From NCBI RefSeq assembly GCF_004320535.1, contig NZ_SIHY01000002.1, positions 124,001-188,000 on the forward strand: 64,000 bases of DNA, in the 5' to 3' direction. Below the pieces are notes generated by a model that saw only the letters and a list, made by a program, of their open reading frames with translations, was not told the origin of the DNA and did not search any database. Source of the stretch: Arthrobacter sp. S41 (GTDB lineage: Bacteria > Actinomycetota > Actinomycetes > Actinomycetales > Micrococcaceae). The translations under genes were made by a program, and so were the position numbers. Of the stretch, positions 8,422-12,448 are shown one piece after another (position 1 is the first letter of the stretch; each line of letters starts with the position of its first letter).

Positions 8422-8453
8422 GATTCCAATCCGTTGGGCATCCTGCCCCGAAT
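8422..8453 (+). promoter_or_regulatory. SigK-type promoter of the fasciclin lipoprotein gene
   Basis: GATTCCAATCCG at 8422-8433 and CCGAAT at 8448-8453, with CCAATCC and CCGAAT 15 bases apart. The same two blocks at the same spacing precede the molybdopterin oxidoreductase gene (10788-10819). From memory, mycobacterial SigK promoters carry CCATCC-like and CCGAAT-like blocks, which these resemble. A start near 8460 would give a leader of about 70 bases. Confidence 0.7.
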
Positions 8454-8528
8454 GCTCATTGACCACCTGATCCGCACGGACAGGAAAAGGACCGACGACA
8501 TCAGTCGCGGCGAAGCAAGGAGAAAATC

Positions 8529-9191
8529 ATGAAGCGCACATACAGCAAAGTCGCTGGAGCATTCGGGCTCATCGCAGTCGCCGCCATGGGACTGAGCGCC
8601 TGCTCGACCGGTTCGGAAACCATGGAATCACCCACCGCCTCCGCCACGGAGAGCAGCTCGTCCATGGCCAGCGAATCTGCAATGGATCCGGCAAGCAATC
8701 TGGTGGGCAGCGGCTGCGCAGCCTATGCCGAAGCAGTGCCAACCGGTGACGGTTCGGTAGCAGGCATGGCCAAGGATCCAGTGGCCGTTGCAGCTTCCAA
8801 CAACCCGCTGCTCACCACGCTGACTTCCGCAGTTTCCGGAAAGCTGAACCCGGACGTTGACCTGGTCGACACCCTCAATGGCGACGAATTCACCGTCTTC
8901 GCTCCGGTTGATGACGCATTCGCCGCAATCCCGAAGGATGACCTGGCCGCTGTGGCCAAGGACGCGGACACCCTGAGCAGCATCCTGACCTACCATGTGA
9001 TCCCCGGCCAGATCGCACCAGATGATCTGCCCGGAACCCATGCAACCGTCCAGGGCGAGGATGTAGAAGTCACCGGCAGCGGCGACGACCTCGAGGTCAA
9101 TGGCGCTTCGGTCATCTGCGGTGGCGTGCAGACCGCCAACGCGACCGTGTACCTGGTGGACACCGTCCTGATGCCACCAGCCAAAAAGTAG
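8529..9191 (+). CDS. Fasciclin-domain secreted lipoprotein (MPT70/MPT83-like)
   Basis: A 220-residue protein with an AAGGAG ribosome site. The signal peptide ends in the lipobox LSAC, so it is anchored to the outer face of the membrane. A Ser/Thr/Ala-rich linker follows, then one fasciclin (FAS1) domain from about 78 to 218, with NNPLLTTLTSAV, the H1-like DEFTVFAPVDDAF, LTYHVIPGQI and the closing TVYLVDTVLMP. FAS1 domains mediate adhesion or protein contacts. In Mycobacterium the homologous MPT70/MPT83 are main targets of SigK, and here sigK follows directly. The codons look richer in third-position G/C than the ribosomal genes around the module. Confidence 0.95.
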   Translation: MKRTYSKVAGAFGLIAVAAMGLSACSTGSETMESPTASATESSSSMASESAMDPASNLVGSGCAAYAEAVPTGDGSVAGMAKDPVAVAASNNPLLTTLTSAVSGKLNPDVDLVDTLNGDEFTVFAPVDDAFAAIPKDDLAAVAKDADTLSSILTYHVIPGQIAPDDLPGTHATVQGEDVEVTGSGDDLEVNGASVICGGVQTANATVYLVDTVLMPPAKK

Positions 9192-9220
9192 CAACGGCGC
9201 AATTGCAAGGCCGATGGCCT

Positions 9221-9259
9221 GAAGGTGATGCATGGAGTCCAAATCCAGGCATCACCTTC
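9221..9259 (+). terminator. Stem-loop after the fasciclin gene
   Basis: Perfect 11-base arms GAAGGTGATGC (9221-9231) and its complement (9249-9259) around a 17-base loop holding a second small TGGA/TCCA pairing. There is no T-run after it, so it may slow or partly stop transcription into sigK, or protect the lipoprotein message, rather than end it fully. Confidence 0.5.
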
Positions 9260-9359
9260 GCTGGTTCAACGGGCCGTGCTCCCCCATCGGCAACTTTCGC
9301 AAAGCGCCACGGAACAGCAGACAGCGAAACAGACACAGATGCGTGAGACTCTAGGATTC

Positions 9360-9941
9360 ATGAGTTCAAATAGACTCGACTCCATGGAAGACGATTCCGT
9401 TCAAACGCCGGACGCCCTGATGCAACAGGTCGCGCTGGGACAAGAAGCTGCCTTCGAATCGCTCTACGATGCCATGGCTTCCCGAGTCTTCGGACTCGTG
9501 CTGCGGGTGCTTCGCGACAGGGCGCAGAGTGAAGAAGTCACCCAAGAAGTTTTCGTCGAAGCCTGGCAGCAGGCCCGGCGCTTTGATCCGGCACGCGGCA
9601 CCGCAGCTTCCTGGCTGCTGACCATTGCCCATCGCCGAGCCGTGGACCGTGTGCGTTCGAGCCAAGCAAGCCAAGCGCGGGATTTGCGCGTTGGAATCAA
9701 GGACTTCCAAGACAGCTACGATGATGTGGAAGAGAACGCCATCTTGCACGATGAAACCGTGCGCGTTTCCCAGGCACTGCAACGGCTCAGCGCGCCACAG
9801 CGAGAGGCCATACACCTGGCCTACTTTGGCGGATACACCCACCTGGAAGTCGCCGAGATGCTGAAAATACCGGTGGGAACCGCCAAAACGCGAATACGCG
9901 ATGGAATGAGCAAACTTCGAGACCTGATGGGAGTGGCGTAA
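9360..9941 (+). CDS. sigK: ECF RNA polymerase sigma factor, SigK type
   Basis: About 193 residues from the ATG at 9360; the open frame extends upstream to 9225 but SigK proteins are near 187-200 residues and no better ribosome site is seen there. Region 2 holds FESLYDAMASRVFGLVLRVL and WLLTIAHRRAVDRVR. Region 4 holds APQREAIHLAYFGGYTHLEV followed by IPVGTAKTRIRDGMSKLR. These match SigK of Mycobacterium closely in layout. Its stop overlaps the start of the anti-sigma gene by one base (TAATG), so the two are translationally coupled. The flanking genes with the shared promoter element are its probable targets. Confidence 0.93.
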   Translation: MSSNRLDSMEDDSVQTPDALMQQVALGQEAAFESLYDAMASRVFGLVLRVLRDRAQSEEVTQEVFVEAWQQARRFDPARGTAASWLLTIAHRRAVDRVRSSQASQARDLRVGIKDFQDSYDDVEENAILHDETVRVSQALQRLSAPQREAIHLAYFGGYTHLEVAEMLKIPVGTAKTRIRDGMSKLRDLMGVA

Positions 9942-10765
9942 TGGACAAGCATGAGAACGAGCGAACCGACAGCTTCGCCCGGGACGCCCTGGGAGACAAA
10001 GAGCGCGAGGAGCTGCTCAACCAGTCTCCGAATTCCGCCCAGGCTCGCCAGGAACTCGACGCACTGCAGGAAACTGCCGGACTGCTTGGCTTGGCGGCAC
10101 AGCCGGTCGCGCCTCCGCCACGGTTGAAGGCCAACATCATGTCCGCCATCCGCACCACCGAGCAGCTCCCTCCCGTTGCGGACCAGGCACCCACCCTGGG
10201 CAGCTCCCCCGCAGCCGTCCCAGCCACCGAGGCTCCGGGGGAACCTGGTTCCGCTGCAGAACCTCCGGTCCAGCAGACAGGAACAGGACGCGGCACGCAG
10301 CGCTTCTTTGCCCTGGCCGCCGGTGTGCTGCTGCTGGCAGCAGTCGCCTTGGGAGGATTGGCGATCAACCAGACTTCCGAGCAGCGCGAGTTGGAGAACA
10401 AGATGGCCGCCATGGCCTCGCATGAAGAAGAGCTCGCGCGGATTCTGGGCGCCCCTGATGCGAAGTCAAAAACGCAGACCTTGGAGGACGGAGCCCGTGT
10501 CACGCTTTCCTATTCGGCCGATGAGGGCTTGATGGCTGTTTCCACCTCCGGCATGCCGGCTCTGTCCAGCGACAAGGGCTATGAGCTATGGCTGATTTCG
10601 GCCGATGGGGCAGTTTCTGCGGGCATGCTCGCCGGCCCCGATGCCGATGGCATGATCATGGTTTCAGATCCGATGAAGGACATCACGCATTTCGGGATCA
10701 CTGTGGAGCCAGCTGCTGGATCCCCTGCCCCGACAACAGATCCCATCATGGTCCAGTCGCTGTGA
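9941..10765 (+). CDS. rskA: Anti-sigma-K factor, RskA-like
   Basis: A 274-residue single-pass membrane protein. The N-terminal cytoplasmic part (1-120) starts with an acidic anti-sigma-like segment and runs into a Pro/Ala-rich linker. One membrane helix lies at about 122-143. The outer domain (about 150-274), with DGARVTLSYSADEGLMAV, GYELWLIS and FGITVEPAAGSPAPTT, is the RskA C-terminal domain. RskA holds SigK at the membrane until it is cut by proteases, the last step being by the RseP/Rip1 class; an RseP homologue is encoded at 29955-31304. No zinc-binding HxxxCxxC motif is seen, in keeping with RskA. Confidence 0.93.
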   Translation: MDKHENERTDSFARDALGDKEREELLNQSPNSAQARQELDALQETAGLLGLAAQPVAPPPRLKANIMSAIRTTEQLPPVADQAPTLGSSPAAVPATEAPGEPGSAAEPPVQQTGTGRGTQRFFALAAGVLLLAAVALGGLAINQTSEQRELENKMAAMASHEEELARILGAPDAKSKTQTLEDGARVTLSYSADEGLMAVSTSGMPALSSDKGYELWLISADGAVSAGMLAGPDADGMIMVSDPMKDITHFGITVEPAAGSPAPTTDPIMVQSL

Positions 10766-10787
10766 AGCCGCAAAAAATCTCGTAGCC

Positions 10788-10819
10788 GATTCCAATCCGC
10801 ATCGCAGGATGTTCCGAAT
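10788..10819 (+). promoter_or_regulatory. SigK-type promoter of the molybdopterin oxidoreductase gene
   Basis: GATTCCAATCCG at 10788-10799 and CCGAAT at 10814-10819. Both blocks and their spacing are identical to those at 8422-8453. The element begins just past the rskA stop, so it would start a separate message for the oxidoreductase with a leader of about 60 bases. Confidence 0.7.
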
Positions 10820-10888
10820 ACATGGTGAGTGGTTGTTCCCCTGCGATCGGCAGAGGAACATGGATCGCAACGCATGAGGTGAGTGGCA

Positions 10889-12448
10889 GTGGGCATTTCA
10901 ACGAAACGCAACGACAGAGTTCTCGTATTCCACGCGGTGGCTGGAATCTGTTCGGCAGCAGCCATGTTCGCCGTGGCCCAGTTCGCTTCGGCATTTTTTA
11001 ATAGCGCCTCGTCACCGTTTTTCGCCTTGGGCTCGGCCATCATCGACCTGACTCCGCCATGGCTCAAGGACTTTGCCATCGCGACCTTCGGCACCAATGA
11101 CAAGCTGGCGCTGTTCATATCCATTGGCGTCGTCGCAACGGTCCTGTCCGCGGTAGTCGGCCTGCTGGCTAAGCGAAGCTTCGCCCTTGCCTGCACCGCC
11201 ATCGTTGCCTTGGCCGTGGTGATGTCCAGCGCAGTGGTCACCCGTGCGTCCACCAGCCTGCTTGATATTGTCCCAACGGTACTCGGCGCGATTGCCGGCA
11301 TCGGGGTTTTGCAGTGGCTCAACCGGCTGGCTTCAGCCACGGCCGCGCCTCCGGGCGAGGACGCCAGCACCCCGGGTCCAAGCCGCAGAACCTTCCTGCT
11401 CGGTTCGGTCCTGGCCCTGGCCGCCTCGGCCATAGCTACCGGCGCTTCGAGCTCGATCTCCGCTGCGCGGAACATGGCTGAGGCTGCCCGCAAGGCCTTG
11501 CGCTTGCCTGCGCCCCGTACCAAGGCAAAACCCCTGCCGGCAGGGGTTCAGGTCGAGGAAGCGGATATGCCACGCTTCGTTACCCCGAACCGGAATTTCT
11601 ACCGTATCGACACCGCACTTTCGGTGCCCCAAATCGACCCGGGACAGTGGTCCTTGCGGGTTCACGGCATGGTGGAGAAGGAATTCACCATGAACTTCGA
11701 CGAGCTGCTGGACCAAGAGCTCGTGGAAACCTATCTGACGCTGACCTGCGTATCGAATCCGGTCGGCGGCGACCTGGTAGGCAACGCACAATGGCTGGGC
11801 TATCCACTGCGCCACCTGCTGGAACGCGCGATTCCCCAAGCCGGCGCAGATATGGTGCTCTCCACGTCGCATGACGGCTTCAGTGCTTCAACCCCGCTGG
11901 AAGTTCTGAGAGATGACCGGATGGCCTTGCTGGCGATCGGCATGAATGGAGAGCCGCTGCCATTCGAGCACGGGTTCCCGGTGCGCATGGTGGTTCCTGG
12001 CCTGTACGGCTACGTGTCTGCTACCAAATGGGTGGTCGATCTGGAAGTCACCCGGTTCCAGGACAAGGCTGCCTATTGGACGACTCGCGGTTGGTCCGAA
12101 CGCGGTCCTATCAAGATGTCTTCCCGGATCGATACGCCTCGCCCATTCGCCAAGGTACCCGCAGGGGACGTCGTGCTGGGCGGTACCGCCTGGGCCCAGA
12201 CCCGCGGCATTTCCCGCGTGCAAGTGCAGATCGATGACGGACCATGGGAAGATGCCGACTTGGCAGCCGAGGCCTCCTTGGATACGTGGCGGCAGTGGCG
12301 CTTCGTGTGGAAGGATGCGACTCCCGGCGCACATTCGGCAACTGTACGCGCCTACGACGCACAGGGCCAGTTGCAGACCAGCGAGAAAGCCAACCCGGTG
12401 CCCAATGGCGCCAGCGGCTGGCAACGCCTGCAATTCACCGTGCAGTAG
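10889..12448 (+). CDS. Membrane-anchored molybdopterin-dependent oxidoreductase (sulfite oxidase/MsrP-like)
   Basis: About 519 residues from the GTG at 10889, six bases after GAGGTGA; the frame also has a GTG at 10883, but that abuts the ribosome site. Four or five membrane helices fill the first 150 residues. A twin-arginine-like SRRTFLLGS precedes another hydrophobic segment. The outer catalytic domain has TLTCVSNPVGGDLVGN with Cys287 as the likely molybdenum ligand, then GFPVRMVVPGLYGY and WTTRGWSERG, and a C-terminal Mo-co dimerisation domain (GVSxV-like ISRVQVQIDDGPW). Such enzymes oxidise sulfite or reduce oxidised methionine; which one is unknown. The SigK-type promoter ties it to sulfur redox or envelope stress. 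In Mycobacterium SigK is also linked to thiol redox. Confidence 0.9.
   Translation: MGISTKRNDRVLVFHAVAGICSAAAMFAVAQFASAFFNSASSPFFALGSAIIDLTPPWLKDFAIATFGTNDKLALFISIGVVATVLSAVVGLLAKRSFALACTAIVALAVVMSSAVVTRASTSLLDIVPTVLGAIAGIGVLQWLNRLASATAAPPGEDASTPGPSRRTFLLGSVLALAASAIATGASSSISAARNMAEAARKALRLPAPRTKAKPLPAGVQVEEADMPRFVTPNRNFYRIDTALSVPQIDPGQWSLRVHGMVEKEFTMNFDELLDQELVETYLTLTCVSNPVGGDLVGNAQWLGYPLRHLLERAIPQAGADMVLSTSHDGFSASTPLEVLRDDRMALLAIGMNGEPLPFEHGFPVRMVVPGLYGYVSATKWVVDLEVTRFQDKAAYWTTRGWSERGPIKMSSRIDTPRPFAKVPAGDVVLGGTAWAQTRGISRVQVQIDDGPWEDADLAAEASLDTWRQWRFVWKDATPGAHSATVRAYDAQGQLQTSEKANPVPNGASGWQRLQFTVQ

Follow-up and report, generated by a model that had tools for sequence, protein, structure and literature searches.

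Identical SigK-type promoter elements before the fasciclin lipoprotein and molybdoenzyme genes that flank sigK-rskA in Arthrobacter sp. S41

The window analysed here is a stretch of 64,000 nucleotides (nt) from Arthrobacter sp. S41 (assembly GCF_004320535.1; contig NZ_SIHY01000002.1, positions 124,001 to 188,000 of the forward strand). It holds a cassette in which a gene for a fasciclin-domain lipoprotein and a gene for a molybdoenzyme flank sigK, encoding an extracytoplasmic function (ECF) sigma factor, and rskA, encoding an anti-sigma factor; a putative SigK promoter lies before each of the two outer genes. The features of the cassette, with protein lengths in amino acids (aa) and hairpin stems in base pairs (bp), are as follows.

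8426..8453, + strand: SigK-type promoter of the fasciclin gene (-35 CCAATCC at 8426-8432, a 15-nt spacer or N15, -10 CCGAAT at 8448-8453)
8529..9191, + strand: fasciclin-domain lipoprotein of the MPT70/MPT83 family, 220 aa (Pfam Fasciclin, 1.1e-27; best PDB match MPT70, 1nyo, 4.7e-57)
9221..9259, + strand: perfect hairpin between the fasciclin gene and sigK, stem 11 bp, no T tract (109-nt region around it, z -3.4)
9360..9941, + strand: sigK, ECF sigma factor, 193 aa, no cysteine (ATG at 9360 chosen as start; frame open from 9225)
9941..10765, + strand: rskA, full-length anti-sigma factor, 274 aa (RskA_C, 3.8e-25; its ATG and the sigK stop share one base)
10792..10819, + strand: SigK-type promoter of the molybdoenzyme gene (-35 CCAATCC at 10792-10798, N15, -10 CCGAAT at 10814-10819)
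10883..12448, + strand: sulfite-oxidase-family molybdoenzyme, 521 aa (Oxidored_molyb, 1.1e-43)

An earlier annotation (the sequence-only reading) had placed the two sites upstream of a fasciclin lipoprotein gene and a molybdopterin oxidoreductase gene on either side of sigK-rskA, and domain, profile and structure matches bear out these gene identities. The lipoprotein has a single fasciclin domain that aligns over residues 2-163 of the 163 in 1nyo, consistent with membership of the MPT70/MPT83 family; a lipobox-like LSAC lies ahead of this domain, and the linker that joins the two contains methionines. The sigma factor scores 256.8 bits against the NCBIfam SigK model (cut-off, 226) and has SigK (4nqw) as its best solved structure; the adjoining RskA-type anti-sigma factor and the SigK-type promoter upstream of an mpt83-like gene likewise place it in the SigK subfamily. 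The molybdoenzyme belongs to the SUOX fold superfamily. Its Cys289 and Arg241 are invariant, Cys289 being present in 22 of 22 aligned sequences, and by alignment with SorA this cysteine would be the molybdenum ligand; the N-terminus, as read from its sequence, comprises hydrophobic helices, and the protein has a twin-arginine pair (R168-R169).

The two promoter sites agree in both elements. GATTCCAATCCG is present in the window at 8422-8433 and again at 10788-10799, and CCAATCC and CCGAAT are 15 bases apart in each case, just as had been read at 8422-8453 and 10788-10819. The sites lie 75 nt (fasciclin) and 63 nt (molybdoenzyme) before the start codons, and their spacers have a common first G and are otherwise different. 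Exactly two matches to CCAATCC-N13-17-CCGAAT occur in the window, compared to a mean of 0.01 in 100 dinucleotide shuffles, none of which (0/100) contained two. A genome-wide search (3,472,078 bases, 7 contigs; spacers 13-17), as proposed with the sequence-only reading, returned only the same two sites, and the reversed pattern gave no match over the same genome and spacers; the motif is not scattered, and its only exact sites stand at the two flanking genes. With the spacer held at N15, the genome contains 2 exact, 4 one-mismatch and 91 two-mismatch matches, where base composition (55.4% G+C in the window) predicts 0.11, 4.2 and 76, respectively; the reversed pattern gave fewer, 32 in total with up to two mismatches. 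Since the one- and two-mismatch counts are near the expectation from composition, only the exact class stands out. A larger regulon of weak sites in this genome was rejected on those counts, though they exceed the reversed control, and all four one-mismatch sites are internal to open reading frames, 217-552 aa long. A 320-aa frame also begins 95 nt downstream of one of them (C1:1682912, in locus L005), and a weak extra SigK target may be present among the 91 two-mismatch sites. Directly before sigK in the window, no site was found, the best match there having four mismatches.

By its named relatives, the genome very probably belongs to Glutamicibacter. Conservation of the sites was followed in 18 genomes of this genus, which together hold 26 fasciclin and 21 molybdoenzyme copies, by scanning the 220 nt before each start. 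All 26 fasciclin copies are preceded by an N15 site with no more than one mismatch (20 exact), 62-75 nt before the start, and 19 of the 21 molybdoenzyme copies by a site with 0-2 mismatches (9 exact, 7 with one, 3 with two), 56-64 nt before it. With N14 or N16, the best match at all 47 starts always had at least three mismatches. Matches in random windows (72/4200 and 159/5200) overstate the background, true sites being included among the windows. For 18 molybdoenzyme and 25 fasciclin copies (two molybdoenzyme misses of genome G005 and one repeat per gene were left out), column identities of the -35, spacer and -10 were 0.98/0.38/0.87 and 0.97/0.44/0.96, respectively. In-gene control windows (n = 43) gave best matches with 3-6 mismatches and identities of 0.51/0.27/0.47 (molybdoenzyme) and 0.50/0.27/0.41 (fasciclin). 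These genus sets and their in-gene control were used instead of the pooled loci, where element conservation is inflated by loci partly fetched with the motif and by the use of best matches only. Exact N14-16 sites are found in 16 of the 18 genomes, with no reversed-control match. Not every one of them is at a target: the two of G002 have N14 or N16 and sit elsewhere. G005 has no exact site, and the cassette sites of G002 and G005 carry one or two mismatches. In G003, neither sigK, the fasciclin gene, the molybdoenzyme gene nor an exact site was found. Of 197 genomes in the family, an exact N14-16 site is present in 80 and a reversed-control match in seven.

Five solo fasciclin paralogues that lie outside a cassette (L170, L171, L172, L174 and L179) each have an exact site. 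No full match to sigK or rskA occurs in the 11-14 kilobases (kb) fetched around them, the fragments seen being 33% identical over 132 aa (L179) and 30% over 90 aa (L170). That such solo paralogues have an exact site with no full sigK or rskA nearby implies control in trans.

A wider comparison used 80 named SigK loci picked by their SigK protein and not by the motif; they partly overlap the genus set and are not independent of it. A fasciclin gene is present in 26, and in 23 of these a site with at most one mismatch precedes it (counted by eye; N15, except for N16 in L105). A molybdoenzyme gene is present in 21, preceded by such a site in 14 and by a two-mismatch site in L090 and L091 (which correspond to G008 and G016); the other five (L103, L104, L107, L108 and L117) have the site before a neighbouring DUF4383 gene. 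Curtobacterium and its relatives have the site immediately upstream of sigK itself. All fetched loci together contain 105 distinct N14-16 sites, of which the 88 with N15 precede fasciclin (36), sigK (23), molybdoenzyme (17) or other genes (12), and none of the 17 with N14 or N16 precedes a fasciclin, sigK or molybdoenzyme gene; in this tally many loci were motif-fetched, the labels denote the longest frame after the site, and at least one, that of L084, is wrong (an off-frame fasciclin reading). In other genera, the site (N15 or N16) is also found before cassette DUF4383 genes, genes for DipZ-like proteins (DsbD and thioredoxin domains) and genes for CHRD-like secreted proteins; two of the latter proteins fall slightly short of the Pfam CHRD cut-off. 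The comparison across relatives that had been proposed thus finds sites before fasciclin, DipZ-like and molybdoenzyme genes, and DipZ and fasciclins are known SigK targets in Mycobacterium tuberculosis (PMC9861118). Judged by these sites, the molybdoenzyme is one of several predicted targets across relatives. The CHRD-like secreted proteins of L066, L068, L062, L073 and L074 have an exact or one-mismatch site, and several end in a membrane-anchor-like tail.

The DUF4383 genes delimit the regulon further. Sixteen matches occur in 12 of the 18 genus genomes and none in the genome of the window; the copy of G005 sits in its cassette. The unlinked genes had been considered as a plain negative control, and this use was rejected when they proved to form two subfamilies: in one (L317-L324; eight copies, eight genomes), CCAATCC-N15-CCGAAG lies 54-78 nt before the start in 8/8, with differing spacers, and in the other (L309-L315) all seven have only sites with 4-5 mismatches, like random windows. 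In each of L317-L324, the site is at position 1377 on the strand of the gene. These eight sites raise confidence that the element is a promoter, and they imply that the regulon extends beyond the cassette in eight species of the genus. The idea of a self-contained regulon accordingly holds for the exact sites of this genome and fails elsewhere, 8 of the 18 genus genomes having the unlinked DUF4383 site with CCGAAG.

The third base of the -35 element provides a link to SigK itself. Exact CC[N]ATCC-N15-CCGAAT sites were compared in the protein-fetched SigK loci L089-L168 and L189-L248: where SigK is at least 55% identical to that of the window, the base is A in 54 of 55 sites, and where identity is 40-55% it is C in 17 of 21, such that SigK clade and third base co-vary. 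The mycobacterial block named in the sequence-only reading, CCATCC, is not that of the window, CCAATCC; CCATCC-N15-CCGAAT, usually as CCCATCC, does occur in related SigK loci and is the form of the 40-55% clade. SigK sites are reported as highly conserved in Actinobacteria (PMC7509140). Cysteine content differs between the same two groups. Among 113 distinct sequences with at least 55% identity, 101 have no cysteine in the matched part, and 41 of 49 sequences with 40-55% identity have two or more. The SigK of the window has none, and so lacks the two redox cysteines that are found in 94% of ECF18 and 56% of ECF19 members (PMC7509140); as ECF19 members are often without it, the pair is not obligatory for SigK membership. 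A SigK without cysteines has been associated with an altered RskA (PMC7509140), yet in the window the cysteine-less SigK is accompanied by a full-length RskA.

At its genomic position, the cassette is flanked by truB on one side and, on the other, by a DUF1905/OmdA gene next to rbfA. It has the same truB/rbfA location in L089, L090, L091, L135 and L184-L188; in the fetched stretches of L092-L099 and L102, truB and rbfA were not found, and that of L100 has rbfA only. The closest named SigK relative is that of Glutamicibacter sp. JC586 (99%).

Together, these observations make it highly probable that both sites serve as promoters for this SigK, switching on the fasciclin and molybdoenzyme genes. 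The site tracks these genes and is absent from G003, and its elements are conserved while the spacers vary, each of which supports SigK as the factor involved. The proposal that SigK drives both genes and that a molybdoenzyme has joined its regulon thus gains support from the co-occurrence of the sites across the genus and in other genera. In the proposed mechanism, the membrane protein RskA would hold SigK back until inactivation of RskA, presumably by an inducing signal, frees it. SigK-RNA polymerase would then bind and read CCAATCC-N15-CCGAAT, activating one arm that consists of the fasciclin lipoprotein gene and, by putative read-through past the hairpin, sigK-rskA, and a second arm that consists of the molybdoenzyme gene. 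Given the absence of an own site before sigK, positive feedback would need this read-through from the fasciclin promoter. A stem of 11 bp, as in the gap of the window, was reached in one of 500 shuffles, and fasciclin-sigK hairpins of at least 9 bp, differing in sequence, were present in 18 of 24 named relatives versus 22 of 1440 shuffles. The hairpin is possibly a partial terminator or an attenuator; its recurrence would fit an attenuator that keeps the sigma factor low and the lipoprotein high.

An alternative that concerns function only, and not the promoters, is that the molybdoenzyme is a sulfite dehydrogenase serving sulfite detoxification, with the regulon answering sulfur stress. It is a serious possibility, though not the likelier one. 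SorA is both the closest solved structure (3e-19) and the best NCBIfam model of the enzyme, but the score of 106 bits is far under the SorA cut-off of 600, and those for SoxC (90 of 420), SorT (70 of 570) and MsrP (63.5 of 207) are also below theirs. In the alignment with SorA, the enzyme also lacks a loop that follows the active-site Cys and has Asp in place of a His close to Arg241; both loop and His we take to belong to the sulfite site. An AlphaFold2 model built from 22 sequences was too poor (pLDDT 57). That the outer part of RskA and the linker of the fasciclin protein are enriched in methionine also argues against a sulfite dehydrogenase: the last 125 residues of RskA contain 4.8% Met in 23 Micrococcaceae versus 1.7% in 53 others and 1.7% in the background, a comparison confounded by phylogeny, and the linker averages 6.6% Met in 20 relatives. 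A separate test of Met against the presence of the molybdoenzyme was blurred, fasciclin-centred loci being counted as enzyme-less when the enzyme lay beyond the fetched stretch. Because this enrichment resembles the systems of Azospira and Brucella composed of an ECF sigma factor, a methionine peptide and MsrP, the analogy suggests methionine sulfoxide repair as a role for the enzyme. Our best guess is that the cassette mediates a response of the envelope to light or oxidants and that oxidised sulfur compounds at the surface, most likely methionine sulfoxide, are the substrates of the molybdoenzyme.

Light enters this picture through three species with divergent regulators. In G002, G011 and G013 (L296, L175 and L176), the fasciclin and molybdoenzyme proteins are 75-77% and 68-71% identical to those of the window, and the promoters are kept with at most one mismatch; the sigma factor is only 34-38% identical, the anti-sigma factor about 29-31%, and a photolyase gene then follows. 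The branch that separates the three divergent sigma factors in a tree measures 2.81 changes per site, a length that demands caution, and the pair may be the product of fast divergence instead of a swap. Among 58 compared loci, photolyase genes are found in these three cassettes and near two solo fasciclin paralogues, from which they are separated by other genes over a distance of up to about 5 kb; photolyase as a general SigK neighbour was rejected, the same query returning none in the 80 named SigK loci. No site was found before the photolyase genes, where the best matches have 3-5 mismatches. Two further cassettes depart from the usual order. The second cassette of G004 (L169, 6620-10535) keeps fasciclin, rskA, molybdoenzyme and the promoters, and in place of sigK has a 35% match over 155 aa with no 120-aa frame; in that of G014 (L173, 3994-7917; fasciclin, rskA, molybdoenzyme), no sigK match was found at the place of sigK. 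L169 and L173 thus have an anti-sigma factor without a visible sigma gene, sigK being degraded or unrecognised.

Published effects concern the systems of other organisms: light induced mpk83 and mpk70 in M. kansasii, and not dipZ, with an effect smaller than that on carotenoid and photolyase loci (PMC9861118), and ultraviolet (UV)-B lowered RskA in Nesterenkonia sp. Act20, the authors of that study proposing SigK as a possible coordinator of the response (PMC8965627). Such light and UV effects on SigK systems, coupled with the photolyase cassettes, suggest a possible photo-oxidative envelope response. In its most specific form, light- or UV-made oxidants would strike methionines in the outer part of RskA and in the fasciclin, RskA would be lost, and SigK would induce a sacrificial fasciclin and a self-anchored, methionine-repairing molybdoenzyme, with three species adding photolyase and a swapped regulator pair that uses the old promoters; as a whole, this scheme is speculative and rather unlikely.

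The same three species supply the argument for a different regulator, whether a repressor or another ECF sigma factor, that would bind the elements, the position of sigK-rskA between them being fortuitous or having some other cause. They imply that the exact SigK of the window is not the sole factor compatible with the site, the partner being not strictly this SigK, but the best NCBIfam model of the divergent factor is still SigK, though below its cut-off. The spacing is constant at 15 in the genus, in a -35/-10-like layout at promoter distance; the same site stands before sigK itself in Curtobacterium and relatives; and the third -35 base follows the SigK clade. A different regulator is therefore very unlikely. 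Slightly less credible again is that the fasciclin promoter alone works and that the site before the molybdoenzyme gene is a decaying remnant or matches by chance. The latter site is the less exact in the genus (9 of 21 exact, three with two mismatches and two absent), but its 15 distinct versions there have element identities of 0.98 and 0.87 against 0.38 in the spacer, far above the in-gene control. Moreover, G010, G014 and G004 have an exact site before their second molybdoenzyme copies, and in loci with an interposed or adjacent DUF4383 gene it is this gene that has the site in front of it. Chance as the origin of the two window sites was rejected by the shuffles, genome counts and in-gene control, and local duplication, as the sequence-only reading had also held, by spacers unlike each other in the window and across species.

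Several observations do weigh against SigK control of both genes. The two tandem molybdoenzyme copies of G005 are without a site, a two-mismatch site lying before the upstream DUF4383 gene; no site with one mismatch or fewer precedes the fasciclin gene in L103, L109 and L166; and the moved molybdoenzyme genes of L104, L107 and L117 have no site of their own. Relatives also have stray exact sites, one of them in G012 upstream of a phage-like Ead/Ea22 gene. To these are added the promoters kept in three species beside a sigma factor of 34-38% identity, and the dependence of sigK autoregulation on read-through past the hairpin.

The sigK-rskA-fasciclin arm is known SigK biology. A molybdoenzyme as SigK target was not found in the open-access literature searched, though a prior mention outside it is possible; fasciclin and molybdopterin were not found together in the same literature, and 'molybd' is absent from PMC7509140. 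The signal of SigK is described there as still unknown. A two-promoter regulon outside the mycobacteria, with a defined enzyme as second target, would be a simple system for finding this signal and the role of the MPT70/MPT83 fasciclins, and the photo-oxidative scheme, if true, would offer a concrete candidate for the mycobacterial signal. The species with swapped sigma and anti-sigma factors but kept promoters represent a natural experiment on promoter specificity.

Among known systems, the mycobacterial SigK-RskA regulon, with its minimal mpt83-sigK-rskA cassette (PMC7509140), is the nearest. Both have the fasciclin lipoprotein gene, sigK and rskA together and a SigK site upstream of the fasciclin gene, and the -10 and N15 spacing are the same as in the SigK loci of the 40-55% clade. 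Unlike it, the window has an added molybdoenzyme target (elsewhere also DUF4383), a -35 of CCAATCC in place of CCATCC/CCCATCC, a cysteine-less SigK paired with an intact, full-length RskA, and a genome without further exact sites. SigF/NrsF-MrpX-YedY1 of Azospira suillum (PMC5748585) and BcrS/AbcS-BcrXQP of Brucella (PMC8315932) likewise combine an anti-sigma factor, an ECF sigma factor, a methionine-bearing exported protein and a sulfite-oxidase-family molybdoenzyme. They differ in having ECF16 and a DUF1109 anti-sigma factor instead of SigK and RskA, a methionine-rich peptide instead of a fasciclin lipoprotein with few Met, and MsrP with a separate MsrQ instead of an enzyme with its own hydrophobic N-terminus. 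The resemblance is one of analogy, not membership: the cassette has no strongly methionine-rich repeat peptide, the linker contains 6.6% Met, and the enzyme scores below the MsrP cut-off. RpoE-ChrR of Rhodobacter capsulatus belongs to a different phylum, and the available text mentions no fasciclin-molybdoenzyme pair (PMC7074977); it has in common a SigK-like sigma factor (34% identical to M. tuberculosis SigK), induced by singlet oxygen and encoded beside a cryptochrome/photolyase gene (PMC7074977).

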